From Gemmatimonadota bacterium (GTDB lineage Bacteria; Latescibacterota; UBA2968; UBA8231): a stretch of 64,000 bases of DNA. Both the position numbers and the translations under genes were made by a program. The stretch lies in contig VXOR01000063.1 in assembly GCA_009840005.1 (NCBI GenBank), positions 3,452-67,451 on the forward strand, in the 5' to 3' direction. The notes below the pieces were generated by a model. The model was not told where the DNA came from. It saw only the letters and a program-made list of their open reading frames with translations, and searched no databases. Positions 51,910 to 64,000 of this stretch are shown one piece after another (the stretch's first letter is position 1; each line of letters begins with the position of its first letter).

Positions 51910-53435
51910 AACGCGTATAGCTTGCAGTCGCGCATGACAAAACGGATCCGGATCGGTTGCCCGGATAATGCGCTGACATCCCAGCGCTTCCCCCAGCGCA
52001 CCGGCATGCGCACCGAATTGCCACAGATGTAGGACGCATCGTCCTCCGTGTAGCCGCTGACCGGTCGTCCATCCGCATCCTGAAGCTCCACGCACACCGC
52101 ACCGCCGCCCCCAGTGTCGAGGTTCAGCTCCAAACGCTCGCCTTCAAAGCGGACAATCGGCGTGACGATTTCGCCGCCGCCGTAGCCCGCATCTGCCGAT
52201 ACGAACCCGTCCAACCGAAGAATCGCGCGACCAATGCCGGAAAGGTGGCCCTTGCCCGCCGGGTCGAGGAGCCCGTCGTGGTCCCTGTTGGTGCCGCTGT
52301 AGTAGATCCAGATTTCGTCACTCATCCGCACCGGATGCGGCATGGCCCAGACCATGCGCGAGGAGAAACTGCCTTCGGGCCCCGGACGCAGGAAGGGCCG
52401 GCGTCCGCCGCCGCGCTGGAAGTTCACTCCATCGCGGCTCACCGACAGGCGCACGTCGAAGCGGCTAGGCCCGTAGATCTGCTGCGTCTCGGTGCGCACC
52501 ACATCCATGTCGTCGCGGACCGTAGTCACCACCGGCTCGCGGTTGAACCAGTACCAGTTGGCGTTGGCGAGCATGACGTACACACCGTGCGGATCCGGAT
52601 ACTTGAACACCGTTGCACCGTAGTAGTCCATCGGCGTCCTGCCGTAGGGTTTTTCCGGCGCGGTTGGATCCAGCGGCGCACCGGTCTCGTAGGTCACCAA
52701 GTCTTCCTCGTCCGGCCACATGACCGTCTTCTGGTTGTCCCAGTTGACGAGATCGTCGGACTCGAGCCGTCTGACCGTCCGGTAGTTCTCATTTCCCTCG
52801 GCGGTGGTGTGGCGTTTGGCGACCCAGCGGCGGGTGTAGAGGACGTAGCGCCCGATTGTCGGGTCCCAGAAAATGATGCTCTGCGTATCCCAGCCGCCCC
52901 GGTGCGGGAGCTGCAAGCGACGAAGGAATTTCCAGTGAATGCCGTCCGGCGAACCGTGCATGTGGAACTGCATCGCCACTTCGGGATTATAGACCTTCGA
53001 CTGGTTCTTGTAGCGCTCCTCGGGCGGGGCATGCGGGTCGATCCAGACCGAGCTGCCACCGAGCTTGCTCGGGATGACGACGTTGTTGGCGCTCGACCCA
53101 CCCTCGTCGATCAGGTTCAGTTCCGGCTTGTCGAAGTGGATGCCGTCCGTCGATTCGGCATAGCCGACGTAGGCTTGGTCGAGGCTGAGCTCGGATTCCT
53201 CCTTCGCCCTGCGCACGTGATACCACAGCCGGATGCGGCCGTCATCTTCCCCCAACACGCTGCTGTAGATGCCGAAGCTCGTGTCGGACGGATCTTCCCA
53301 CGGGGCACCGACGGTCACCACCGGCTCCGCGGCCTGGTAGGGTGGATTCATCACAAGCTCCACTCCGTTGCCAGTGACGATGAAGCGATCGTCGACGAAA
53401 AGCTGCTTGCTCGATCCAATATCTATCGGCTGCAT
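51882..53435 (-). CDS. Secondary-metabolic or glycan beta-propeller (GH32/43-like) protein
   Basis: 517 residues from ATG 53435 (the open frame extends to 53486, but IDIGSSKQLFVDDRFI is the conserved beginning of such proteins). Five-bladed propeller-like signatures: RLWYHVRRAKEESE, YAESTDGIHFDKPELNL, FHMHGSPDGIHWKFLRRL, RYVLYTRRWV, DVRLSVSRDGVNFQRG, IWIYYSGTNRDHDG. The C-terminus forms a jelly-roll-like domain (VCVELQDADGRPVSGY). Close to uncharacterised glycosidase-like proteins in soil and marine bacteria. It lies back to back with the sialidase-like gene. Confidence 0.72.
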   Translation of the reverse strand: MQPIDIGSSKQLFVDDRFIVTGNGVELVMNPPYQAAEPVVTVGAPWEDPSDTSFGIYSSVLGEDDGRIRLWYHVRRAKEESELSLDQAYVGYAESTDGIHFDKPELNLIDEGGSSANNVVIPSKLGGSSVWIDPHAPPEERYKNQSKVYNPEVAMQFHMHGSPDGIHWKFLRRLQLPHRGGWDTQSIIFWDPTIGRYVLYTRRWVAKRHTTAEGNENYRTVRRLESDDLVNWDNQKTVMWPDEEDLVTYETGAPLDPTAPEKPYGRTPMDYYGATVFKYPDPHGVYVMLANANWYWFNREPVVTTVRDDMDVVRTETQQIYGPSRFDVRLSVSRDGVNFQRGGGRRPFLRPGPEGSFSSRMVWAMPHPVRMSDEIWIYYSGTNRDHDGLLDPAGKGHLSGIGRAILRLDGFVSADAGYGGGEIVTPIVRFEGERLELNLDTGGGGAVCVELQDADGRPVSGYTEDDASYICGNSVRMPVRWGKRWDVSALSGQPIRIRFVMRDCKLYAFQFVDSPSS

Positions 53436-53592
53436 GATGTCCTCGTTGCAGACCCGCGTTTCGCACGTCCGCGGTTTGTCTATCATTGGACAGTTTGCAA
53501 TTTTGGCAGAGAAGGCATTGATTTTTGGTCATGTCCAAGCTACCAAGGAGCCTGTCCTTTTTCAACTGCGCCGACCAAAAAAACGACAATTC

Positions 53593-54750
53593 ATGCAACA
53601 AAACCATTCCGTGTTGTACTGGGACGACGCTCGGTATTCCAGCTTCCCGACCGTGGTAAAGGGAGACCGCGACGAGCTCTGGGTCGGCTTCAACTGGAAC
53701 TCCCACACGCCGCTGGCGCACGGCGTCGAAGGTGCAGCGCACTCTCATTCAGGTGGACTGGCGGGAGGCGCAACCGGTCACGTGGAGCTGTTCTCGCCAG
53801 ATGGCGGAGGCAGTTGGTTCGAGGAGGGGAAGGACGACCAGTACCGCGAGTGCCCAGAGACGCTGAGAAGCGCCGTGCTGAGCGACGGCACCCAGATCAG
53901 GATCTCCAGGCCCGCTAACGTGTACCCGCCCGAACGCAAGGAGGAGTTCGCGCGACGCGGTTTTGCAGTGGAGGAGTTCCCCGAACGCATCCACGTGGAG
54001 CACAGCCTGCAGATCTCGCGCAAGCGACCGGGAGCAAGCGACTGGGAGCGTCGTCTGCTCAGTAGCGGCCAAGAGCTGCCGTTCTTCGCCCTGATCCGCA
54101 ACGGGACCGACCTGAAGAGTTGCGTTCTCGCCGACGATACCATCGTGAGTCAGGTGTACGGCAGCGCCTCAGCAGGCGATCCGTTCCGGGCCTGGGTGCT
54201 GCGCTCGGAAGATGGCGGCGACACCTGGGAGATGGTGACGATGGCGTACGACGGCGGCGAGCATCCGTTCAACGAGAGCTCCCTCCTGGCGCTGCCGAGC
54301 GGACGCATCGTGGCGATGGTACGCACGTCCAGCGGCAGCAAAGCCATTCCACCGGAAAAAAAGTACCTGTTTCAGACGCACTCGGACGACGGCGGGAAAA
54401 CCTGGAGTAAGGTCAGCAAGACCGAGATGTGGGGATACCCTCCGCACCTGTTGCTGCTAAGCAGCGGCGATGTCCTCTGCAGCTACGGATATCGGCGGGC
54501 TCCATACGGGGTGCGGGCCTGCCGGTCTCGCGACGGCTGCGCAACGTGGGAAATCACAGACGAGATCGTACTGCGCGACGACGGTCTCACCACCGATGGG
54601 ACCGTGACCGGGAAAGGCACGCCCGCCGACCTGGGTTATCCGCGGACAGTCGAGCTTTCGGACGGCTCGCTGTTCACCGTGTACTACATGACCCTCGGCG
54701 ACAGCGTAACTCACGTGGCGGCGACCCGGTGGGCGCTGGATCAAGCGTAG
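53593..54750 (+). CDS. Exo-alpha-sialidase-like BNR-repeat protein
   Basis: 385 residues from ATG 53593, the first start with a well-conserved N-terminus (VLYWDDARYSSFPTVVKGDRDELWVGFNWNSH). Asp-box motifs are visible: SPDGGGSWFEE, SEDGGDTWEM, SDDGGKTWSK, SRDGCATWEI. A six-bladed propeller is expected. No signal peptide, so cytoplasmic, or exported by another route. Sialidase activity is not certain; many family members act on other sugars or are binding proteins. It pairs with the divergent glycosidase-like gene. Confidence 0.85.
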   Translation: MQQNHSVLYWDDARYSSFPTVVKGDRDELWVGFNWNSHTPLAHGVEGAAHSHSGGLAGGATGHVELFSPDGGGSWFEEGKDDQYRECPETLRSAVLSDGTQIRISRPANVYPPERKEEFARRGFAVEEFPERIHVEHSLQISRKRPGASDWERRLLSSGQELPFFALIRNGTDLKSCVLADDTIVSQVYGSASAGDPFRAWVLRSEDGGDTWEMVTMAYDGGEHPFNESSLLALPSGRIVAMVRTSSGSKAIPPEKKYLFQTHSDDGGKTWSKVSKTEMWGYPPHLLLLSSGDVLCSYGYRRAPYGVRACRSRDGCATWEITDEIVLRDDGLTTDGTVTGKGTPADLGYPRTVELSDGSLFTVYYMTLGDSVTHVAATRWALDQA

Positions 54751-54786
54751 GGCACGGCGGCGACCGTAGAAAGATTACAATTACAA

Positions 54787-56175
54787 ATGGCAGATTGTGT
54801 TCTCCAAACCTTGATACCAGACATCGAACGCTTGGCAGCAACAACGGTTGCCAAGTATAAACTTCCCGGCATGGCACTCGGCATTATCCGCGATCGAGAA
54901 CTCGCTTGGTTCGGCGGGTTCGGCGCAGCGGATCTCGATGCGGGCAAAAAACCTACTGCAAGCACGATTGCCCGTATCGCCTCCGTGACCAAGACGTTCA
55001 CGACAACTGCGATTATGCAGTTGCGGGATGCGGGCCAACTCAAGTTGGATGATCCACTAGCACAGCACATCCCCGAATTTGCTTCAGTTCGTGCTATCCG
55101 CGGCGATGTCAATGATGTGACGCTCCGACGATTATTAACGCACCGCTCCGGCTTGGTCACCGAGTCGCCGACGCACGGTTGGAATGATCTCGACTTCCCA
55201 AACCGCGAGGAGATGCTTGGCAAACTGCCGGAGACGGGGATTGTCATCCCGCAGGACTCCGCTTTCAAATACTCAAACCTTGCATTTGGGTTACTCGGCG
55301 AGGTGGTGTATAGGCTCACCGGCACGCCATACACCGAATACGTCCACGCCAATATTATTGAGCCGCTCGGTCTAACATCCACGGTCTTCGACCTCACGGA
55401 CCAATTGCGTCCTCACTTCTTTGTCGGTTATAACCCGACGCCCTACCAAGACCGCCCTGAACGCGCACCTTACGCCCACCTGAACGGGATTGCAGCGGCG
55501 GGGCAACTACATTCCACCGTTGGCGACTTGGCAAAGTGGGTATCGTTCCAATTCCAAACCGACGGCGGAGATCGCCGCGGGGCACAGGTACTCAAGGGAT
55601 CAACACTGGTGGAGATTCAACAACCACAATACATCGAGCCGGATTGGTTGGCGGGGCAATGTCTAGGCTGGCGCACAACCCGCATCGGCGACCATGTCTA
55701 TCACAATCACGGTGGCGGGATTCACGGTTTTGGCACACAGGTGTGGTTTAACGTTCCGCGGAAAACCGGCGCGGTTGTTCTCATCAACATGTGGCCCCCA
55801 CACGGAGGCCTTGAGATTGCACAGGAAGTACTTGAAATGATACTGAATGCCGACGAAGCAGTGCCGCTTGTACCAGAGCAGCCAGCGCTTGAACCAACGC
55901 CAGAGGCATTGCAGCGTTTTGTCGGGTATTATCGTGCCGAGCCGGGCATTGATGTGGACATTGAGGTGCGCGACGGCAACCTACGGCTTGCGGCTCACGG
56001 TGGGTCTGCGTATTCCCTACATGCCCCAGCAGTCCTCGAACCGACAGACAAAGAGGAGGAATGGCTTGTTCGCGAAGGTCGCGCAGCCGGAGAAATCGCC
56101 CTCTTTACGTTTGACGACGATGATCGCGTAATAAGCTACGAGTTAGGAGCTTTTGTGTTCAAAAAGTTGGTGTGA
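54787..56175 (+). CDS. Serine hydrolase of the class C beta-lactamase family
   Basis: 462 residues. The nucleophile SxxK is in IARIASVTKTFTTTAIMQL, the second motif YxN in KYSNLAFGLLG, and the third HxG in YHNHGGGIHGFGTQVW. An N-terminal PGMALGIIRDRELAW and a C-terminal beta-domain (LQRFVGYYRAEPGIDVDIEV) are typical of the Pab87/beta-lactamase-like group. No signal peptide. Probably an esterase or D-aminopeptidase rather than an antibiotic-resistance enzyme. Converges with the GDPD gene. Confidence 0.92.
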   Translation: MADCVLQTLIPDIERLAATTVAKYKLPGMALGIIRDRELAWFGGFGAADLDAGKKPTASTIARIASVTKTFTTTAIMQLRDAGQLKLDDPLAQHIPEFASVRAIRGDVNDVTLRRLLTHRSGLVTESPTHGWNDLDFPNREEMLGKLPETGIVIPQDSAFKYSNLAFGLLGEVVYRLTGTPYTEYVHANIIEPLGLTSTVFDLTDQLRPHFFVGYNPTPYQDRPERAPYAHLNGIAAAGQLHSTVGDLAKWVSFQFQTDGGDRRGAQVLKGSTLVEIQQPQYIEPDWLAGQCLGWRTTRIGDHVYHNHGGGIHGFGTQVWFNVPRKTGAVVLINMWPPHGGLEIAQEVLEMILNADEAVPLVPEQPALEPTPEALQRFVGYYRAEPGIDVDIEVRDGNLRLAAHGGSAYSLHAPAVLEPTDKEEEWLVREGRAAGEIALFTFDDDDRVISYELGAFVFKKLV

Positions 56176-56187
56176 CGATGTACCCCT

Positions 56188-56913
56188 TTACTCAATTTCT
56201 GTGAGAATCGCCTTCAGTCGTTCCGGATAGTTTGTCAAAATCCCATCGACGCCGATCTCGATGTAAGCTCGCATATCTTCAGGGGTATCCGCATAAAAGA
56301 CGTGCACAGCTCGTCCTGCCGCATGGGCCTTTTGCACAAACTCCCGAGTCGTGATGTCCCGTCCCGGCTGCATCGTCCGCAACCCCATCTCTACCGATTT
56401 TCGGATATATTCCTCTGGTGTGCGATTCGCGCGAAAGAGCCGACACTCAATCCGCGAGTCGATCTCGGCAAAAATTCCAACGCTTTCATCGCTGCATGCC
56501 AAAATAGAAGCCTCTACCATCTGAAACTCGCGCAATGCCTGTGCAACTTTACGTTCATAGCGACCGTCTGGATTACCCCCTTCTTTGAGGTGGACATTGA
56601 GCCTAACCTTCCCTTGTACGAGGTCTAATGCTTCCTCCCATGTTGGCACGCGCTCACCCCGAAACTGTTCACCAAACGCTCTTCCGGCGTCGAGGGCTTT
56701 GATTTCAGCTAGTGTGCGTTCGGCAATCGCGCCCGTGCCATCTGTCGTTCGGTCCACGGTTGAGTCGTGCATGACAATTAGATGGCAGTCCTTTGTCAGG
56801 TGGAGATCTAGTTCAATCTCATCAACGCCAATTTCCAACGCCTTCTGAAAGGCGATCAACGTATTCTCGGGATAGTTTCCCGACGCACCCCGATGAGCAA
56901 CATTAACAATCAT
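56188..56913 (-). CDS. Glycerophosphodiester phosphodiesterase
   Basis: 241 residues, ATG 56913 behind AGGAGG (which overlaps the direct repeat). VAHRGASGNYPENTLIAFQKALEIGVDEIELDLHLTKDCHLIVMHD has the two catalytic histidines and the Glu-Asp metal ligands. The end AGRAVHVFYADTPEDMRAYIEIGVDGILTNYPERL is the usual last strand. Length is standard. Hydrolyses glycerophosphodiesters to an alcohol and sn-glycerol-3-phosphate. Confidence 0.94.
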   Translation of the reverse strand: MIVNVAHRGASGNYPENTLIAFQKALEIGVDEIELDLHLTKDCHLIVMHDSTVDRTTDGTGAIAERTLAEIKALDAGRAFGEQFRGERVPTWEEALDLVQGKVRLNVHLKEGGNPDGRYERKVAQALREFQMVEASILACSDESVGIFAEIDSRIECRLFRANRTPEEYIRKSVEMGLRTMQPGRDITTREFVQKAHAAGRAVHVFYADTPEDMRAYIEIGVDGILTNYPERLKAILTEIE

Positions 56914-56924
56914 TTTTTATGCCT

Positions 56925-56964
56925 CCTCGATTAGTGCCATGAGTCCCTTGCGCCGCAACCAAGT
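56925..56964 (+). repeat. Right copy of the 40-bp direct repeat
   Basis: Matches 51716-51755 with one difference. It begins in the ribosome binding site of the divergent GDPD gene and enters the second copy of the MSPLRRNQV reading frame. Confidence 0.9.
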
Positions 56965-57084
56965 GGCCATGCTAGTATCGTCCTGCATTGGGGATTTGCC
57001 GGCGCGCTGGGAACCGCGGTCGGCTGCTATCTGGGTGTCCTGCTGACGATGCGTAGTATGGCGCGGTTACAAATGCGCCGATAG
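56939..57084 (+). pseudogene. Degraded small membrane-protein gene
   Basis: Begins with MSPLRRNQVAMLV, lacking 12 bases relative to the left copy. Then, in another frame, it reads HWGFAGALGTAVGCYLGVLLTMRSMARLQMRR to the TAG at 57082-57084. Joined across the shift this would be a ~55-residue, two-helix membrane protein following the mutarotase gene in the ancestral order. The 51730 copy holds only its N-terminus. No family recognised. Confidence 0.55.
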
Positions 57085-57087
57085 TGA

Positions 57088-57327
57088 TCAATCTGTCATC
57101 GTCATATTACGAGCGTGGGTAATATCCTTATCGGTTACTAGGCGGGCCTGCGATGGCAGCACCGTTGCAATGGCAGCCGTATTCCCGTCGAGTGTCATGA
57201 ACTCCACCACAAAGGCTTCTCCTCCTGGATGGATATGCACAATCGTGCCGACGTCACCAGCCACCAACCCCTCCTCCAGAATATCGCTTATAAGTACGAT
57301 ACGTTCATGTTCCTTGAACATCTTCAT
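57088..57327 (-). CDS. DUF4926 family protein
   Basis: 79 residues: FKEHERIVLISDILEEGLVAGDVGTIVHIHPGGEAFVVEFMTLDGNTAAIATVLPSQARLV, an SH3-like barrel typical of DUF4926. Its start overlaps the stop of the DUF6883-like gene (ATGA), so the two are co-translated. The pair is commonly found together, and a toxin/antidote or accessory role is suspected but unproved. Confidence 0.85.
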   Translation of the reverse strand: MKMFKEHERIVLISDILEEGLVAGDVGTIVHIHPGGEAFVVEFMTLDGNTAAIATVLPSQARLVTDKDITHARNMTMTD

Positions 57328-57662
57328 CCTCCAAGTGGGTGTGCTGTGATGAGTCTGGGGCTATTACTTCCTATGTCCACCTGCCAAACCGTTTTTATTT
57401 TTGGGTTGCGTCCATCAGGCGTCTCAATAATCCCATCTACATGGTAGCGCGGACCGAAAGCGGTTTCTACAATCTCGACAACTTTATGGCTTGTTCCCTG
57501 AACCCGTAATGCGTCCGCTAAGTTCTGCCACTGATCCACTCGAAAGCCGAATCTGAAAAAGAATTTAGCCTTGCCTCGACCATCGGGACTCGTTGTCGAG
57601 AGCAGGTAGCCAGTAATTTTTTCTTTTTCAACTCGGGCATATCGTGCGTTGGGCAGATTCAA
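57324..57662 (-). CDS. DUF6883-like small protein
   Basis: 112 residues: MNLPNARYARVEKEKITGYLLS, then GRGKAKFFFRFGFRVDQWQNLADALRVQ, VVEIVETAFGPRYHVDGIIETPDGRNPKIKTVWQVD. The pattern matches the DUF6883 family, often a C-terminal toxin-like domain of polymorphic proteins or a free-standing gene next to DUF4926. It precedes and overlaps the DUF4926 gene. Confidence 0.75.
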   Translation of the reverse strand: MNLPNARYARVEKEKITGYLLSTTSPDGRGKAKFFFRFGFRVDQWQNLADALRVQGTSHKVVEIVETAFGPRYHVDGIIETPDGRNPKIKTVWQVDIGSNSPRLITAHPLGG

Positions 57663-57744
57663 TTATAATCCTCTTCATATAGCATCCTGTTCACTCTGTT
57701 AATATCCTACCGCTGTGCTCGACCCGCAATGGCCCCTCTCTCCC

Positions 57745-60405
57745 TTACGGCGTACCGCGGTACGGCACCACGACAAACGCCCCACCCGTAGGCGAGTGCC
57801 GAGGGTTTTCGTACACAGTCAACAGCGAACCAGCCGCTACATCAGTTGCGCTCTGGGTGCGTCCCGAAGGCCAGCGCACGCGCACGGCGTCCACTCGTTG
57901 ATGTGCGCCTAAGCCGACGAGCAAGGTCGCGCTGTTTTGGGCCGAAAAGCCCTCGCCGGCTCGATGCTCGCGCAGCAGCGTCCTCCCGCCGACATCCACT
58001 TCCACCTGCACGCCATACCCATCGCGCACGCTCCACTCGCGCGAGACCTCGTCGCGGTCGTTCCCCCCCACAAACCGCAATGCGAGGATATGCCCCACCT
58101 TGCTGCGGTTGGCAAATAGCTCGCAGAGCGGCTCATTGGCATTGACAACAGCCAAATCGATGCGCCCATCGCGGTCAAAGTCCAAGGTAGCAAAGGCGCG
58201 GCCATCCGCAGGCGAATCCGCCGCCGACAGACCCGATACATCGATGAAGTCGCTACCTTCTACATTGAGAAAGAAGCGGTTGCGCTGGTATCCGCTGAGC
58301 GAGGCCCCGGCGTCGAGCCGCGCACCCACGTTGTACGCCCCATCCGTCCGGCCATGACGCACGACCGTGCGCCAAAACAGACTTCAGGTATCCTCGGGAA
58401 GCGCGACTTCTCGCGGTGGAGTGTAGTAGCCGCTCAGGGCGTAGATATCGAGGTCGCCGTCGTTGTCAAAGTCCAAAAACTGGCCGCCCCAACCCCAGCC
58501 GCCGTCCTCCACCGGCGAATCTGCAACGAGAGTGAAACCCTCACTGCCGTTCCGCAGGAGGGAGTTGCCCCGGGCCAAAGGAGCAAACGCCGCACCCGCC
58601 AGTCCGGCAGCTTCCGTGATGCGGCGACCGGCGCTGCTGTGCATGTTGGTCACGTACAGGTCTTGGCGGCCATCCCCGTCGTAATCGGCCCAACTTGCGC
58701 CCATGCCAAAGCCCGGATCCGCAGCCCCGCTCTCCGCGGTGACATCGACGAGAGTGCCGCCGTCATTGCGGAGCAAGTTGTTGGTAGCAAAGTCATTGGC
58801 AAGGTAAAGATCCGGGTCGCCATCGCGGTCGTAGTCGGCCCAACTCGCCTGTAAGGTATTGCGCCACACAGCGGCGGTGGCAGTAAAGCGTCCGTTGCCG
58901 AGGTTGCGCAGCAGGACATTGGGCGGTCCGGGTGCGTCGTAGATGAGGTGGCCGATGCGGTCGCGGCTCAGGCCGTAGAGTGTGCGAGCGTGGTCCGTAG
59001 GCAAGAAGTCGGCCAGCAGCGCGCCTCCCCAAGAATCAGTTCGGGACGCAGAGGGGGCCGCGGCGAGCAACATCCGCGCGGCATACGTGGAGAAGTACAC
59101 GTCGAGCAGACCGTCGCCGTCGTAATCGGCCGCTGAGATCGAGGCCACGAGGAACGGCAAGACGCCATCGCCCAAGTCGCGGGAGACGAAGTGCCCGTCC
59201 TCGTTGACCATGTAAAGGCTCGGCGCAAGCGTGCGGCCGAGGAAGACATCCGGGTCGCCATCGTTGTCAAAGTCAGCGAAGAGCGCGGCAGCCGTGTGGT
59301 CCTCCACATCGAGGCCGTATTGGGCCGCGCACTCAGTAAACGTGCCATTGCTGCCATTGTGCAACAGCATGTTTCGACCCCGGCGCACGGCAATGTACAG
59401 GTCGTCGTACCCATCGGCGTCGATATCCACGACGCTGATGCCGGGATGGCGATCAAAAGCCTGGCGAGTGAAATAGCGGTGCGGCGCGACGAACGCAGAG
59501 TCGCTAAACGACTGGCGCACCAGTTCGGCGTGGCGCGAAAACCTAGCCCGAGCGCGGTCTTCGTCGCGCGGGAGCGCCTCGTCGAGGACTTCGGCAAACA
59601 GCGCCTGCTCCCGCGTCAGCATCTCCAGCGATTCGGTCTCCCAGCGTCGAATCCGCCAATTAGCATCTTCTTGCTGCTGCCATTCGAGCACCAGCCAAGC
59701 CCGAATCTGCGCACGCTCCCCGTCTTGTGTCTGCGCTGAGGCGTCGAAGCGCACACGGGCTTGGTAAATCGACTCTTCCGCGTCGAGAAAATGCCCAGTC
59801 TCAATGTGGAAGGCTGCATAGTCGAAGAAATGAACTACAGCCAAGAGCGAATTCCACAGTTGTATGTCTGCGCCGTGGACCTGCTCGGCGGGTGCAATCC
59901 TCCATCGCTGACGCTTGATGCCTAGTGCCGGGACGATCTCGGTCGCCTCCGCCATCTGCCCCACGTCCGCAACATCAACCGTAGCGCCAAAAAGCGGACG
60001 AGCCGGTGCAGCGGGCAGTTGGCCTTGGTACATCCCCAAGGCGAAAAGCGGCAGAGCCTCGCCGCTCAGATGCTGCTGCACCGCTTCGCTGCGGTCAATA
60101 GTCGCCAAGAGCCGGTTGCGTTCCTGCACCTTTTGCAGTGAGCGGGCCGTGCCGTATCCCCCGAGGATGGCAAGCGCGCCAAAGATGAAAGCGACGAGCG
60201 CAATGGGAATCAGCGGCAGCTGAGGACAGCGCCAAACGAGCCAACCACCGCTAAAGAGCAAGGCGATCTGAAGGACGATGATACCCTCAGTGCCAAGCAG
60301 ATGCCCCGGAAAAAAATGCGCGAGCCCCAGCGGATTGAAAGCCAAACCACTGAGCAGCAGAGCCACACCGGCGAGGCGCACGGCGGCGCGCGGGCGACTG
60401 GTCAC
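57745..60405 (-). CDS. ASPIC/UnbV FG-GAP membrane-anchored protein with an in-frame UGA (candidate selenoprotein)
   Basis: GTG start at 60405. The frame runs 673 codons to a TGA at 58386-58384 and continues in the same frame for 212 codons to 57745, so read-through gives 886 residues with Sec at 674. N-terminus: three hydrophobic helices (about 10-85), then a helical/SnoaL-like part, then FG-GAP repeats (DIDADGYDDLYIAVRRG, DFDNDGDPDVFLGRT, DYDGDGLLDVYFST, DYDRDGDPDLYLAND, DYDGDGRQDLYVTNM, DFDNDGDLDIYALSG). After the TGA: SLFWRTVVRHGRTDGAYNVGARLDAG, one more FG-GAP repeat (TLDFDRDGRIDLAVVN) and a complete ASPIC/UnbV end (QRVDAVRVRWPSGRTQSATDVAAGSLLTVYE). The domain continues across the TGA without loss, and a SECIS-like hairpin follows it. 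A simple nonsense mutation is the alternative. Confidence 0.75.
58355..58386 (-). promoter_or_regulatory. Candidate bacterial SECIS element behind the UGA
   Basis: On the minus strand, nine bases after the TGA, UGGCGCAC (58374-58367) pairs with GUGCGUCA (58362-58355), eight pairs including one G-U, closing on the tetraloop GGUC. The apical G lies 18 bases after the UGA. In E. coli fdhF the loop also carries GGUC, 19 bases after the UGA. Confidence 0.65.
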
Positions 60406-60483
60406 CGGTCGTACCCTCCGCCTAGCAAATCAGAGTTCAACCCTATCCAGTACAAGACTGATTCACCCCATTGAATGCAGTTT

Positions 60484-60511
60484 TTGTCCCGGCAAGACAG
60501 CATAGTATATT
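60484..60511 (+). promoter_or_regulatory. Promoter of the deacetylase-like gene
   Basis: TTGTCC (60484-60489), 16-base spacer, TATATT (60506-60511), about 54 bases before the likely start. Confidence 0.55.
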
Positions 60512-60564
60512 AGACGCCAAACAGCCGCTCAGTCTCGGCGGATTCTAATAAAAGGAGGACGCTC

Positions 60565-61806
60565 CTGTTCGCTGAAATCGCCCGCCACGCCCTTGATCGG
60601 GTACCCTTGTCCATCATCTTCGACGATTCCACGGTGCTGGTCAACCTCAACTATTTCTTCCTCCGCGACCGCACCATCGCCGAGGGACGCCCCCAGCGTT
60701 GGGAGGATGTGCCGGTGGCCCATCCTACGTCCTTTACCCGCGAATTTGCCGAATGGTGTCTAACAAGCGGTGTCCGGGGCAAATTCTCAGTAGTCCCCTG
60801 CCCAGCAGCCCTAGGACGCATCGACGAGGGCCTGCCCCTTTTCAGCAAAGCCCAGCAAGACGAATGGCTGGCCATGTGCCGCGAGGTCATCGTCCCCGCC
60901 TTCGACATCACGCCCGAGATGCTCACCCACACGTTCGTGCTAGATCCCAAAACCTTGCAGCCGCTCCCCTCTAGAATATGGGAGCAATACGATTGGGCCG
61001 CGCTGCCCGAGGATCAAGAGGAGTTGGTCACCGAGTACATCGCCCAAGCGTGCCGCATTCTAGTCGCTGTGGGCCTAACGCCCCAAGGGGTAACCTCACC
61101 GGGCGGTTTCGGCGGCCGCACCCTGCCCTTTTACGCCCGCTGTGCTGGCGAGGCCGTGCGCCAAGTCACGGGCAACCCCCTGCCCTACTTTTTTCAGCGG
61201 ATCTCTAGGGACGACACGGTAGAAACCCCCGTGTGGTACCCCGATCGCCAAACCGGACAAGCCACCGGCGAAATCATCGCTTCTACCGGCGACTGGACCG
61301 GCAGTTGGACCGGCTATGGCGAGGTCGATCCCGACAAGTACATCACTCCCGACTTGGAGGGTGGCCGCCTACCAGCCCTCATCGACGCGGGCGAACCGGC
61401 TGTGCTCATCAGCCATTGGCAGGGATTCTATGGGTTACACGATGAGGACCGGCGTGGCTTTAAGGCATTCAAGAAGGTGGTGAGTCGTCTCGCCGAGCGC
61501 GATCCGAGGGGAGAGCGCACCCAATGGCGCACCTGTAGCCAAATCACCACCTATGCCTGCGCCCGCGCAATGGCCGAGATCGCAGTCGAAGGCAACACCA
61601 TCCGCCTCGACCTGCCGGTGCAGACTCCTGACTTGACCCTGCGCCTGACAAATGGAGAAGTGCGCTCAGTGCGGGTAGATGGCCGCCCATTGACGCGAGC
61701 TGCGAACCGCGCCGCTTTCAAAAGCGACACGTTCCTGCTAGAAGACGGAGCTACTTTAGTCGCCTTTGACCCAGCCCAAAGACGAGTGCAAGTGGAAGTG
61801 GAGTAA
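60565..61806 (+). CDS. Polysaccharide-deacetylase-like protein of uncertain function
   Basis: About 413 residues if translation starts at the CTG 60565, six bases behind a perfect AGGAGG (60553-60558). The first TTG at 60607 has no ribosome binding site and would cut into FAEIARHALDRVPLSIIFDDST. IIFDDSTVLVNLNYFFL and VRGKFSVVPCPAALGRID resemble the beginning of a NodB-type (polysaccharide deacetylase) barrel. The C-terminus is a small beta-domain (NTIRLDLPVQTPDLTLRLTNGEVRSVRVDG). Similar proteins occur in the same bacterial groups as the rest of the window. Catalytic residues beyond the Asp pair cannot be assigned by eye. Confidence 0.65.
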   Translation: MFAEIARHALDRVPLSIIFDDSTVLVNLNYFFLRDRTIAEGRPQRWEDVPVAHPTSFTREFAEWCLTSGVRGKFSVVPCPAALGRIDEGLPLFSKAQQDEWLAMCREVIVPAFDITPEMLTHTFVLDPKTLQPLPSRIWEQYDWAALPEDQEELVTEYIAQACRILVAVGLTPQGVTSPGGFGGRTLPFYARCAGEAVRQVTGNPLPYFFQRISRDDTVETPVWYPDRQTGQATGEIIASTGDWTGSWTGYGEVDPDKYITPDLEGGRLPALIDAGEPAVLISHWQGFYGLHDEDRRGFKAFKKVVSRLAERDPRGERTQWRTCSQITTYACARAMAEIAVEGNTIRLDLPVQTPDLTLRLTNGEVRSVRVDGRPLTRAANRAAFKSDTFLLEDGATLVAFDPAQRRVQVEVE

Positions 61807-61867
61807 CTATATTAGGAAGCCCCACCGCTAGGGGGTTTGAGATAGCTTCTCACAGGAGGTTCAAACA

Positions 61868-62083
61868 GTGAGCAATACCTACACGGCAATTTTTGAACGA
61901 GACGATGAATGGCACATCGCATATTGCCCAGAGGTGCCGGGAGCTAACGGCCAAGGACGCACAAAGCAAGAGGCTCGGGAAAGTCTGGCGAGCGCGATTG
62001 AGCTTATCTTGCGGGATCGTCTGGAAGATGCGTTGCGAGGTCTTCCTGATGACGCCGAACGAGATATTGTGGTTGTCCAGTGA
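61868..62083 (+). CDS. hicB: HicB-family antitoxin
   Basis: 71 residues, GTG start eight bases after AGGAGG. YTAIFERDDEWHIAYCPEVPGANGQGRTKQEARESLASAIELILRDR is the partial-RNaseH fold of HicB-type antitoxins. The stop overlaps the GTG of the hicA remnant. Because the toxin is broken the antitoxin may be an orphan. Confidence 0.9.
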   Translation: MSNTYTAIFERDDEWHIAYCPEVPGANGQGRTKQEARESLASAIELILRDRLEDALRGLPDDAERDIVVVQ

Positions 62084-62260
62084 AAAGAAGAGCTCTTCTA
62101 CGGCATCTTAGACGTAACGGCTGCTACCTCATCCGCGCACTCGCTATGGTGCAATCCTGCTACCGGTGCCGTTGAAGCAGTGTCCCGTCACGTAGAGATC
62201 CCCAATCGTCTCGCCAAGAAAATTTGTAAAGCACTCTCCATACCGGAAATCGGCGGATAA
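62080..62260 (+). pseudogene. hicA: HicA-like toxin, frameshifted
   Basis: From the GTG at 62080 the frame reads MKRRALLRHLRRNGCYLIR and then goes out of frame at 62137, stopping at 62175. In the +1 frame from 62138 it continues HSLWCNPATGAVEAVSRHVEIPNRLAKKICKALSIPEIGG to the TAA at 62260. The conserved Gly-x-x-His region (normally REGGNHSLY) has lost the residues between Arg and His, equal to about 11 bases. The rest matches HicA. Either a real inactivation or an assembly error. Confidence 0.8.
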
Positions 62261-62295
62261 CTTCGCTGAATCATGTTAACAACGGAGACTGTAAC

Positions 62296-63369
62296 ATGGA
62301 CTCACGCCCCCAAATACTCATCGCCTGCAACAAGCACGTGCGCGAGCAGTACCTCGCCGCGGCCGATTTCGCACGCCTCGAAACCTTCGCCGACTGGGAC
62401 TGGTTCGAATGCGAAGGCGGCGGCATTTACGACACCAACGCAGATTCCGAGACCGCCCGTGCGCTAGGCGCACGGCTACGTAGTTACGACGGCTTGGTCG
62501 TCTGCCACGGCTGCCCCACGATCGATGCCGCAATCTTGGATCAAGCCCCCGGCCTGAAAATCATCGGCGAGTTGGAAGGCGACCGCTTTGCCAGCCGCAT
62601 CGACGTCGAGGCCGCCTGGGAGCGGAGCGTCTGCACGGTTGATACGACCAACGGCTCGTCGTATCCAGTGTCCGAGTGGGCCTTGGCGCTCATCATCATT
62701 GCCCTGCGCAACGCCGGAGCCCAATTCCGCCGCCTCATCGCCGGCGACGTGAGCCCTCGTCCGCACACCGACTTTGGCTTCATCCACGGCGATCTGACCG
62801 GCAAGCGCGTCGGCCTGATCGGCTGCGGGCACATTGGCCGACGACTAATCCAATTTTTGCGCCCCTTCCAGACCGAAGTGTGGGTGTTCGATCCCTATCT
62901 GGCGCGCGAGATGGCCGACGCTGTCGGCTTCCTCAAAACCTCGTTGGACAACGTGATGTCGCAGTGCGACGCCATCGTCTGCCTAGCCCCGCACACCCCG
63001 CGCACCGAGCGCATGATCGGGCAACGAGAGCTAGACCTGATCCAGCCGGGCGCGGTGTTCGTCAATGTGTCGCGCGGCAAAGTGGTGGATTCGGATGCGC
63101 TGGTAAAGCGGCTCAAGCGGGGCGACATCGTCGCCGGTCTGGACGTGTTCGACCCGGATGTGGGCGAGGACAACGCCTATGGCGACAAGGAGATTCTCCA
63201 CTTGGAAAACGTCTTCGTCACCCCCCACATCGCCGGCGTGACCGTACAGAGCTATCCGCGCTTTTTCGAGCTGATGGTCGACGAACTCAACCGCTTCTTC
63301 CACGGGCACGAGACCCTCTTCGACCTAACGCCGCGCTCCATCGCCAACCGCCGGGGTAGTGAGAGTTGA
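62296..63369 (+). CDS. D-isomer-specific 2-hydroxyacid dehydrogenase
   Basis: 357 residues, ATG behind CGGAGAC. Catalytic domain start VCHGCPTIDAAILDQAPGLKIIGELEGDRFASRIDVEAA; NAD-binding motif GKRVGLIGCGHIGRRLIQFLRPF, then VWVFDPY. The active-site Arg is in VFVNVSRGKVVD, the Glu is replaced by Asp in AGLDVFDPD, and the His is in VFVTPHIAGVT. The family reduces 2-keto acids. Probably linked to the sugar or hydroxyacid catabolism of the neighbouring genes. Length is normal. Confidence 0.92.
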   Translation: MDSRPQILIACNKHVREQYLAAADFARLETFADWDWFECEGGGIYDTNADSETARALGARLRSYDGLVVCHGCPTIDAAILDQAPGLKIIGELEGDRFASRIDVEAAWERSVCTVDTTNGSSYPVSEWALALIIIALRNAGAQFRRLIAGDVSPRPHTDFGFIHGDLTGKRVGLIGCGHIGRRLIQFLRPFQTEVWVFDPYLAREMADAVGFLKTSLDNVMSQCDAIVCLAPHTPRTERMIGQRELDLIQPGAVFVNVSRGKVVDSDALVKRLKRGDIVAGLDVFDPDVGEDNAYGDKEILHLENVFVTPHIAGVTVQSYPRFFELMVDELNRFFHGHETLFDLTPRSIANRRGSES

Positions 63370-63406
63370 CCAGGCTGACCCCACTCCAAGTCGGCCAATT
63401 CCGCTT

Positions 63407-63882
63407 CTAGGCGAGCAATCCCCGCAGGTAGTCAACGGCCAGGCCAATGGCCTCGAGGTCGCTCACCGCATTGCCCTGACCCTCGAAGACGATGGACATA
63501 TTGCCGTTGAAGTCGACTTGGCGGAGAATTTCGACAATGCGCTCGTAGTCGAGCCACTCCTCCCGGCCGCGGTCAATTTTGTATATTTTGGCCCGCACAT
63601 AGGTGGCGTGGGGCGCGGTCTGCTCCATGAAGTCATAGAAGTCGACCGCGGGATTCTCGGCCCCGGAGGGGGCCGCGCCCGGCGAGCCTTGCCACCAGCC
63701 CGTGTCGAGGATGAAGGTGAAGTTTTCGCGGTTGACATCGCGCAGTATTTTGAGAATATCGTCCCCAGTGGGCGCGATGACCGGGGCGTGGTTGTGGAGG
63801 CCAACGAACACGCCTTTGCCGACGGCGTAGTCGCAGACCTCTTGGAAGCTGCCAATGGCGTCCTGCCACAGGACGCGGCGGT
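63407..63882 (-). CDS. Sugar phosphate isomerase/epimerase (TIM barrel), 5'-partial
   Basis: The minus-strand frame is open from the poly-G boundary at about 63883 to the stop at 63407 (about 158 residues). RRVLWQDAIGSFQEVCDYAVGKGVFVGLHNHAPVIAP is followed by FTFILDTGWW and IVFEGQGNAVSDLEAIGLAVDYLRGLLA, the C-terminal half of a xylose-isomerase-like barrel with the His of LHNH and the metal Glu of FEGQG. The start of the protein is lost in the low-complexity sequence. Confidence 0.85.
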
Positions 63883-64000
63883 GGGGGGGGGGGGGGGGGG
63901 GGCGCCCGCGGCGGGCGGGCCCGCGGGGCGCCCCCCGGCGGGGCGGGCGCGCGCCCGCCGAGGGTGTCTAGAGGTGTGGCGGGGGGGGGGGGGGGGGGGG
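63883..64000. other. Low-complexity contig end with two poly-G runs
   Basis: Twenty G at 63883-63902, then ~78 bases almost entirely G and C, then 20 G at 63981-64000. It cuts the epimerase gene mid-frame. Such runs are typical of dark-signal base calls in two-colour sequencing and are unlikely to be genomic. Confidence 0.85.

Follow-up and report, generated by a model that had tools for sequence, protein, structure and literature searches.

A conserved in-frame UGA in bacterial FG-GAP/ASPIC proteins: a probable new selenoprotein family

Within the 64,000-nucleotide stretch of bacterial DNA analysed here (the window), a gene for an FG-GAP protein is interrupted by a single in-frame TGA, which raises the question of whether this codon ends the protein, marks a damaged gene, or is read as selenocysteine (Sec). 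A sequence-only reading had described an open frame of 673 codons, the TGA, and a further 212 codons with no frame change, an arrangement that was reproduced by ORF analysis (Table 1). It had also held that the ASPIC/UnbV domain is complete only by read-through. In the read-through protein, the Pfam match covers model positions 1-68 of 68, and its location (Table 1) places the domain wholly past the TGA, in agreement with that statement. The three Pfam families assigned to the read-through protein all score above their cut-offs, and the hydrophobic N-terminal segment is probably a membrane anchor, its insertion being judged from the sequence. Across seven congeneric pairs, dN/dS amounts to 0.07-0.15 before the UGA (codons 300-673) and 0.08-0.17 after it; by this measure, purifying selection past the UGA is like that before it.

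Table 1. Features of the read-through gene, in window coordinates
Feature	Coordinates	Strand	Description
Whole read-through gene	57745..60405	(-)	886 residues with proposed Sec at 674; GTG start, TAA stop
First ORF	58384-60405	(-)	673 aa from GTG, ended by TGA; coding 60405-58387
In-frame UGA, proposed Sec codon 674	58384..58386	(-)	homologous TGA in relatives
SECIS-like hairpin	58355..58374	(-)	8 bp stem; loop GGUC at 58363-58366
TAA stop of read-through frame	57747-57745	(-)	212 codons past the TGA
N-terminal hydrophobic helices	60232..60393	(-)	residues 5-58; helices in predicted model
FG-GAP propeller repeats	58426..59445	(-)	about residues 321-660 (limits read from the predicted model); PF13517, PF01839 and predicted propeller fold
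UnbV_ASPIC domain	57817..58020	(-)	residues 796-863; PF07593, E 1.3e-16

Conservation of the UGA and the residues that replace it

An orthologue with one in-frame TGA is present in nine of the 11 genomes of the nearest genus (nearest genome G001), and the TGA stands at the homologous site in all nine congeneric orthologues; the congeneric locus L015 was also flagged with a TAA, which lies outside the aligned stretch. Among 80 named genome loci, 41 have TGA at this site, and they represent at least six phyla: 12 are labelled Planctomycetota, 11 Verrucomicrobiota, 10 Acidobacteriota, and three Myxococcota, with one each from Latescibacterota, Gemmatimonadota, and Pseudomonadota and two unplaced. 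The other 39 loci include three with Glu and five with Asn in the same motif and two that end short (L100 and L101 stop before the site); most of the remainder are ASPIC proteins in which the motif was not seen, and four non-TGA loci carry an in-frame TAG outside the Sec motif. A search of 297 Acidobacteriota genomes returned 72 matches, 38 of them with one TGA and none with TAA or TAG, and TGA was found in 29 of the 30 fetched Acidobacteriota loci in which the site was read. Replacement of the UGA by TAA or TAG was observed in none of the named loci, congeners, or Acidobacteriota. In a protein search, 74 of 120 among the matches listed (4950 in all) stop exactly at the UGA position, a figure that reflects protein ends only, stop codons not being visible in a protein database; the identity of these proteins goes down to 67% over the matched stretch. 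One database relative, P0060, has a frame change just before the UGA, which represents a sequencing error or a damaged copy. Plasmids yielded no match at E 1e-30, and viral contigs one weak match.

The consensus around the site is D-x-U-S-x-aromatic-W-R-x-V; 76 of 76 sequences have Asp at -2, 67 have Ser at +1, and 71 have Trp at +4. Counts given below for 77 UGA sequences exclude L077, L162, and L167, which come from the same genomes as L011, L111, and L118, respectively. It had been suggested that homologues with Cys or UGA at this position would support Sec. The UGA part stood, the same-site UGA occurring in several phyla together with closely similar hairpins. The Cys part stood only at a distance: in the nearest full-length set of 26 aligned homologues, none has Cys, and Glu prevails (21 Glu, two Ser, one Val, one Asp, and one gap; for P0094, a motif search selects another residue than the alignment), whereas Cys occupies the site in 117 of 120 among the matches listed for a distant sister ASPIC family, found via L002. 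The locus L002 (L002:445-2685), a G001 paralogue, carries Cys where the window protein has the proposed Sec, and its family motif is D-Y-C-T-x-F-W; several displayed examples of the Cys family also have W-C-H-D, with a Cys two residues past the Trp.

The relationships among these forms were considered on a tree of 117 rows, built by a quick method with SH-aLRT support only and including 32 picked from 240 proteins, seven non-UGA loci, and L002. The Glu clade is nested among the Sec lineages of Verrucomicrobiota, six changes are needed between Sec and other states, and the Cys sister family lies a long branch away. The Sec/Cys pair on which selenoprotein discovery relies therefore exists, but at a distance, which may explain why the family was passed over. 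Among the Glu-type relatives are L084, L096, and L099, of which L084 has a near-perfect palindrome at the place of the hairpin, possibly the remnant of a former Sec site.

The hairpin past the UGA and the selenocysteine machinery

The sequence-only reading had reported an 8-bp stem with the loop GGUC nine bases past the TGA, and folding recovered the same hairpin; the spacing from TGA to loop, put at 18 nt in that reading, was counted as 17 nt. That reading also proposed a likeness to the SECIS element of E. coli fdhF in loop bases and spacing. As a 30-nt fold, the segment reaches -12.4 kcal/mol (z -2.10; eight of 200 shuffles equally stable), and as a 64-nt fold it has z -1.30, with 20 of 200 shuffles equally stable. 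By itself, the window hairpin is only moderately unusual, and the case rests on its conservation. An Rfam scan of the window gave nothing at gathering thresholds.

A 2026 selenoprotein catalogue (PMC13188914) gives limits for bacterial SECIS elements: a loop of 3-9 nt with G within its first two positions, a stem of 4-16 bp, a spacing of 16-37 nt, and an energy of -7.5 kcal/mol or lower. The window hairpin lies within them (8 bp, GGUC, 17 nt, -11.6 kcal/mol), as do 58 of 77 UGA sites against 373 of 4620 control codons from the same genes. With a stricter test (stem of at least 6 bp, spacing 16-18 nt), the figures are 53 of 77 and 50 of 4620. The 19 UGA sites that fall outside the energy limit of the simple hairpin test mostly have a recognisable yet weaker hairpin.

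Codon usage within the hairpin is also constrained. When the codons of residues shared by all ten congeneric sequences are compared, 679-682 prove frozen in four of four cases against a background of 17%, or of 8/19 and 13/36 when Val and Arg alone are considered. Across phyla, GTG encodes the second (last) Val in 41 of 41 UGA loci, against a share of 38% for GTG among the Val codons of these genes; the first Val is encoded by GTC in 36 of 41. Five Asn relatives share the identical peptide W-R-Q-V-V with mixed Val codons, which indicates that the codon freeze goes with the UGA. In subgroup B (loop GGUCG, 31 sequences), 91.9% of alignment cells are paired, a value reached by none of 500 shuffles, and 12 cells are compensatory (0/500 shuffles), all twelve in one base pair. 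In subgroup A (25 sequences), 95.3% of cells are paired with one compensatory cell, and covariation does not exceed that of shuffles, the helix being nearly invariant. In a third subgroup (L114, L115, L117, L119, L127), the Sec is followed by other residues, the motif being D-L-U and then mostly L-P; in four of five members, the best hairpin carries GGUC as its loop on a stem of 4-5 bp.

The presence of selA, selB, selC, and selD had been proposed as a check, and it was carried out on the 11 genomes of the nearest genus, the window's own assembly lying outside this set. In these congeners, selA was found in all 11 (10 above cut-off), selD in all 11 (10 with an in-frame TGA of its own), and tRNA-Sec in all 11 at 65-72 bits, with ARAGORN calling tRNA-SeC at seven of seven congeneric loci tried; selB is above cut-off in 10, and G045 has a partial match only. 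The loop of the selD hairpin in these congeners differs from that of the ASPIC gene hairpin, so that no consensus is shared between the two. In 37 other UGA-bearing genomes, selB was found in 35, and 32 have a tRNA-Sec scoring at least 52.9 bits; ARAGORN confirmed five of the low scorers, and one just below is a tRNA-Ser. At least one of selB and tRNA-Sec occurs in 36 of the 37, the exception being the genome of L118, where neither selB nor a convincing tRNA-Sec was found. Among 29 genomes picked for UGA-less ASPIC relatives, which may hold UGA members elsewhere, 17 have selB (Fisher p 0.0006 against the UGA genomes, kinship ignored). Most genomes with Glu or Asn forms possess the machinery too, so its presence alone is no predictor of UGA.

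The conserved UGA, the hairpin, the downstream frame, and the Sec machinery of the congeners thus support the earlier proposal that the UGA at 58386-58384 encodes Sec. We put the probability that UGA 674 is read as Sec, and that the gene is a selenoprotein gene, at roughly 0.93. The ribosome would reach UGA 674, SelB carrying Sec-tRNA would bind the hairpin just downstream, and Sec would be inserted, giving an 886-residue product with an FG-GAP propeller, probably membrane-anchored, in which the ASPIC/UnbV domain follows the Sec.

Possible role of the selenocysteine

A C-terminal CxxC is present in 55 of 77 UGA proteins, about 260-290 residues past the Sec, and seven of the proteins without it have Cys at U+2. 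The 15 proteins with neither are those of the window's genus (10) and of the third subgroup (five); the C-terminal CxxC thioredoxin-like domain is absent from the window protein and its nine congeneric orthologues. Where this domain was tested, it matched AhpC-TSA/Redoxin families, in some cases below the Pfam cut-off, and its Foldseek matches include ResA and DsbE structures. Among long-tailed rows, CxxC is found in 53 of 53 Sec proteins against four of 25 non-Sec proteins (Fisher p 2e-15, kinship ignored). Three phylogenetically independent pairs bear on this link, of which one or two agree and none oppose; once phylogeny is allowed for, the link is weakly suggestive. In a wider list of proteins obtained by pattern search, three of 26 Glu proteins have CxxC, one of them L084, which diverges close to the base of the larger Glu group.

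From the CxxC in 55 of 77 UGA proteins, the Cys at U+2 in seven more, and the CxxC in four of 25 non-Sec proteins, it follows that the Sec is probably redox-active, and a redox mechanism is the option towards which we lean. In both predicted models (pLDDT 89.4 for the window protein and 87.5 for L079), the Sec is placed at the N-terminus of a short helix or close to it, a common location for redox Cys and Sec residues; in this position it would be the redox-active residue. In most members, the fused TlpA/ResA-like thioredoxin domain would resolve or recycle the Sec, and the Cys two residues on would play this role in others; for the window's genus, which has neither, an external reductant must be assumed. 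The best reading is that of an oxidoreductase whose attacking group is the Sec, and the likely activity would be that of an extracytoplasmic thiol/selenol oxidoreductase or peroxidase. In a broader form, which we hold somewhat more likely than not, these proteins would be a widespread, so far undescribed class of extracytoplasmic selenoenzymes with a CRTAC1-type propeller, a catalytic Sec located between this propeller and ASPIC, and recycling by a fused thioredoxin domain or U-x-C; in the Verrucomicrobiota, Sec would have been lost to Glu, with decay of the CxxC afterwards. If this is true, the ASPIC/UnbV family, its Cys branch included, would gain a redox active site.

Sec might also be inserted without being catalytic, serving as a metal ligand or structural residue at the propeller/ASPIC junction. 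Such a role would suit the Glu and Asn replacements, which retain a ligand-like side chain, and the 15 of 77 members without an obvious resolving Cys, but it leaves unaccounted for the CxxC domain or U-x-C in the other 62 and the rarity of CxxC in long-tailed non-Sec rows (just 4/25); we regard it as unlikely, about a one-in-five matter in informal terms.

The immediate neighbours, which encode DUF6883, GDPD, a beta-lactamase-family hydrolase, a BNR-repeat protein, and a 2-hydroxyacid dehydrogenase, give no functional clue. The DUF6883 gene (112 aa; window 57324-57662, minus strand) lies directly 3' of the Sec gene and is unmatched in the four congeneric stretches with which it was compared. 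No convincing thioredoxin gene was found beside the Sec gene among ORFs of at least 90 aa in window 52000-64000 and four congeneric stretches, searched with the W[CA]xxC pattern only. About 3 kb after the Sec gene, L158:10578-13472 and the matching parts of L159-L161 contain conserved ORFs of about 180, 414, and 138 aa or more, a set kept also in the distant congener L160. NCBIfam has no family for the window protein; eight relatives have sub-threshold matches to generic thioredoxin or TPR models, and among NCBIfam selenoprotein models they match none except a TlpA-type model (WAxxUGC), again below cut-off.

Alternative decodings and relation to known families

The UGA could be a true stop, with the second half of the gene restarting at the GTG eight codons on through translational coupling to yield two partner proteins. 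An in-frame start-type codon does occur at +8 in 69 of 77 UGA genes, where it is the GTG of the hairpin 3' arm, and ORF finding reports a 205-aa ORF from this GTG in the window. However, six of the 77 genes have no in-frame ATG, GTG, or TTG within 15 codons, relatives with Glu, Asn, Ser, or Cys are single polypeptides through the site, different phyla share a conserved peptide between UGA and GTG, and the UGA is not seen replaced by TAA or TAG in the loci examined; a restart would, we infer, split a domain and deprive the second half of the N-terminal anchor. A split gene is thus very improbable.

Reading of the UGA as another amino acid by a near-cognate or suppressor tRNA appears just as improbable. 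Although Glu, Asn, Ser, Val, and other residues are tolerated at the site in relatives, the SECIS-like hairpin and the Sec machinery co-occur with the UGA, and Cys stands there in the sister family. UGA also terminates other ORFs of the window, so it has not been reassigned wholesale. A nonsense mutation, pseudogene, or sequencing error, to which an in-frame stop under the standard code would ordinarily point, is refuted by the same TGA in 50 other loci (duplicates still included) and by purifying selection on both sides of it.

Selenocysteine insertion therefore remains the preferred reading, and the locus most likely belongs to a new selenoprotein family present in several bacterial phyla and decoded in the known SelB/SECIS way. 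It resembles other bacterial selenoproteins of this kind in its in-frame UGA, adjacent hairpin, apical-loop G at 16-37 nt, and, in its congeners, Sec machinery, and it differs from the catalogued ones in that its nearest relatives carry Glu, not Cys. The order of FG-GAP repeats followed by UnbV_ASPIC (PF07593) is that of CRTAC1/ASPIC-UnbV proteins, with a fold match to murine CRTAC1 (9etn); unlike the latter, the window protein has an extra N-terminal region and an in-frame Sec, and most UGA relatives have a fused thioredoxin-like domain. The CxxC domain of these relatives is of the TlpA/ResA/DsbE type, but it is absent from the window protein, and the Sec precedes the CxxC by about 260-290 residues and does not lie inside the domain.

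The earlier statement that no selenoprotein of the ASPIC/UnbV kind had been described is borne out by PMC13188914: its Table 1, which also lists entries from two Haft papers, has no ASPIC/FG-GAP entry among 119 selenoprotein families and subfamilies, and the terms FG-GAP, ASPIC, UnbV, CRTAC, and VCBS do not appear in that paper. Term searches in the text of PMC12013277, PMC2398784, PMC1088965, and PMC1794560, and in the main text of PMC4807772, did not find the family either. This coverage of mostly openly available literature points to a family uncatalogued as a selenoprotein. In PMC12013277, the deep-Sep authors note that all known selenoproteins seem to have Cys homologues and that selenoproteins without them may be filtered out; the Glu-bearing nearest relatives may thus mark a blind spot of current selenoprotein searches. 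As database entries of this group stop at the UGA, annotation misses the last 200-odd residues or more, and with them ASPIC and any thioredoxin domain. The multi-phylum family provides a first testable handle on the role of ASPIC/UnbV propellers. The sister family of L002 has Cys at the position homologous to the proposed Sec of the window family; in L002 itself, a C-terminal CxxC domain is not apparent. The genome G001 contains 187 matches to the window protein (E <=0.001), many of them partial and overlapping, which represent a large expansion of FG-GAP/ASPIC proteins.
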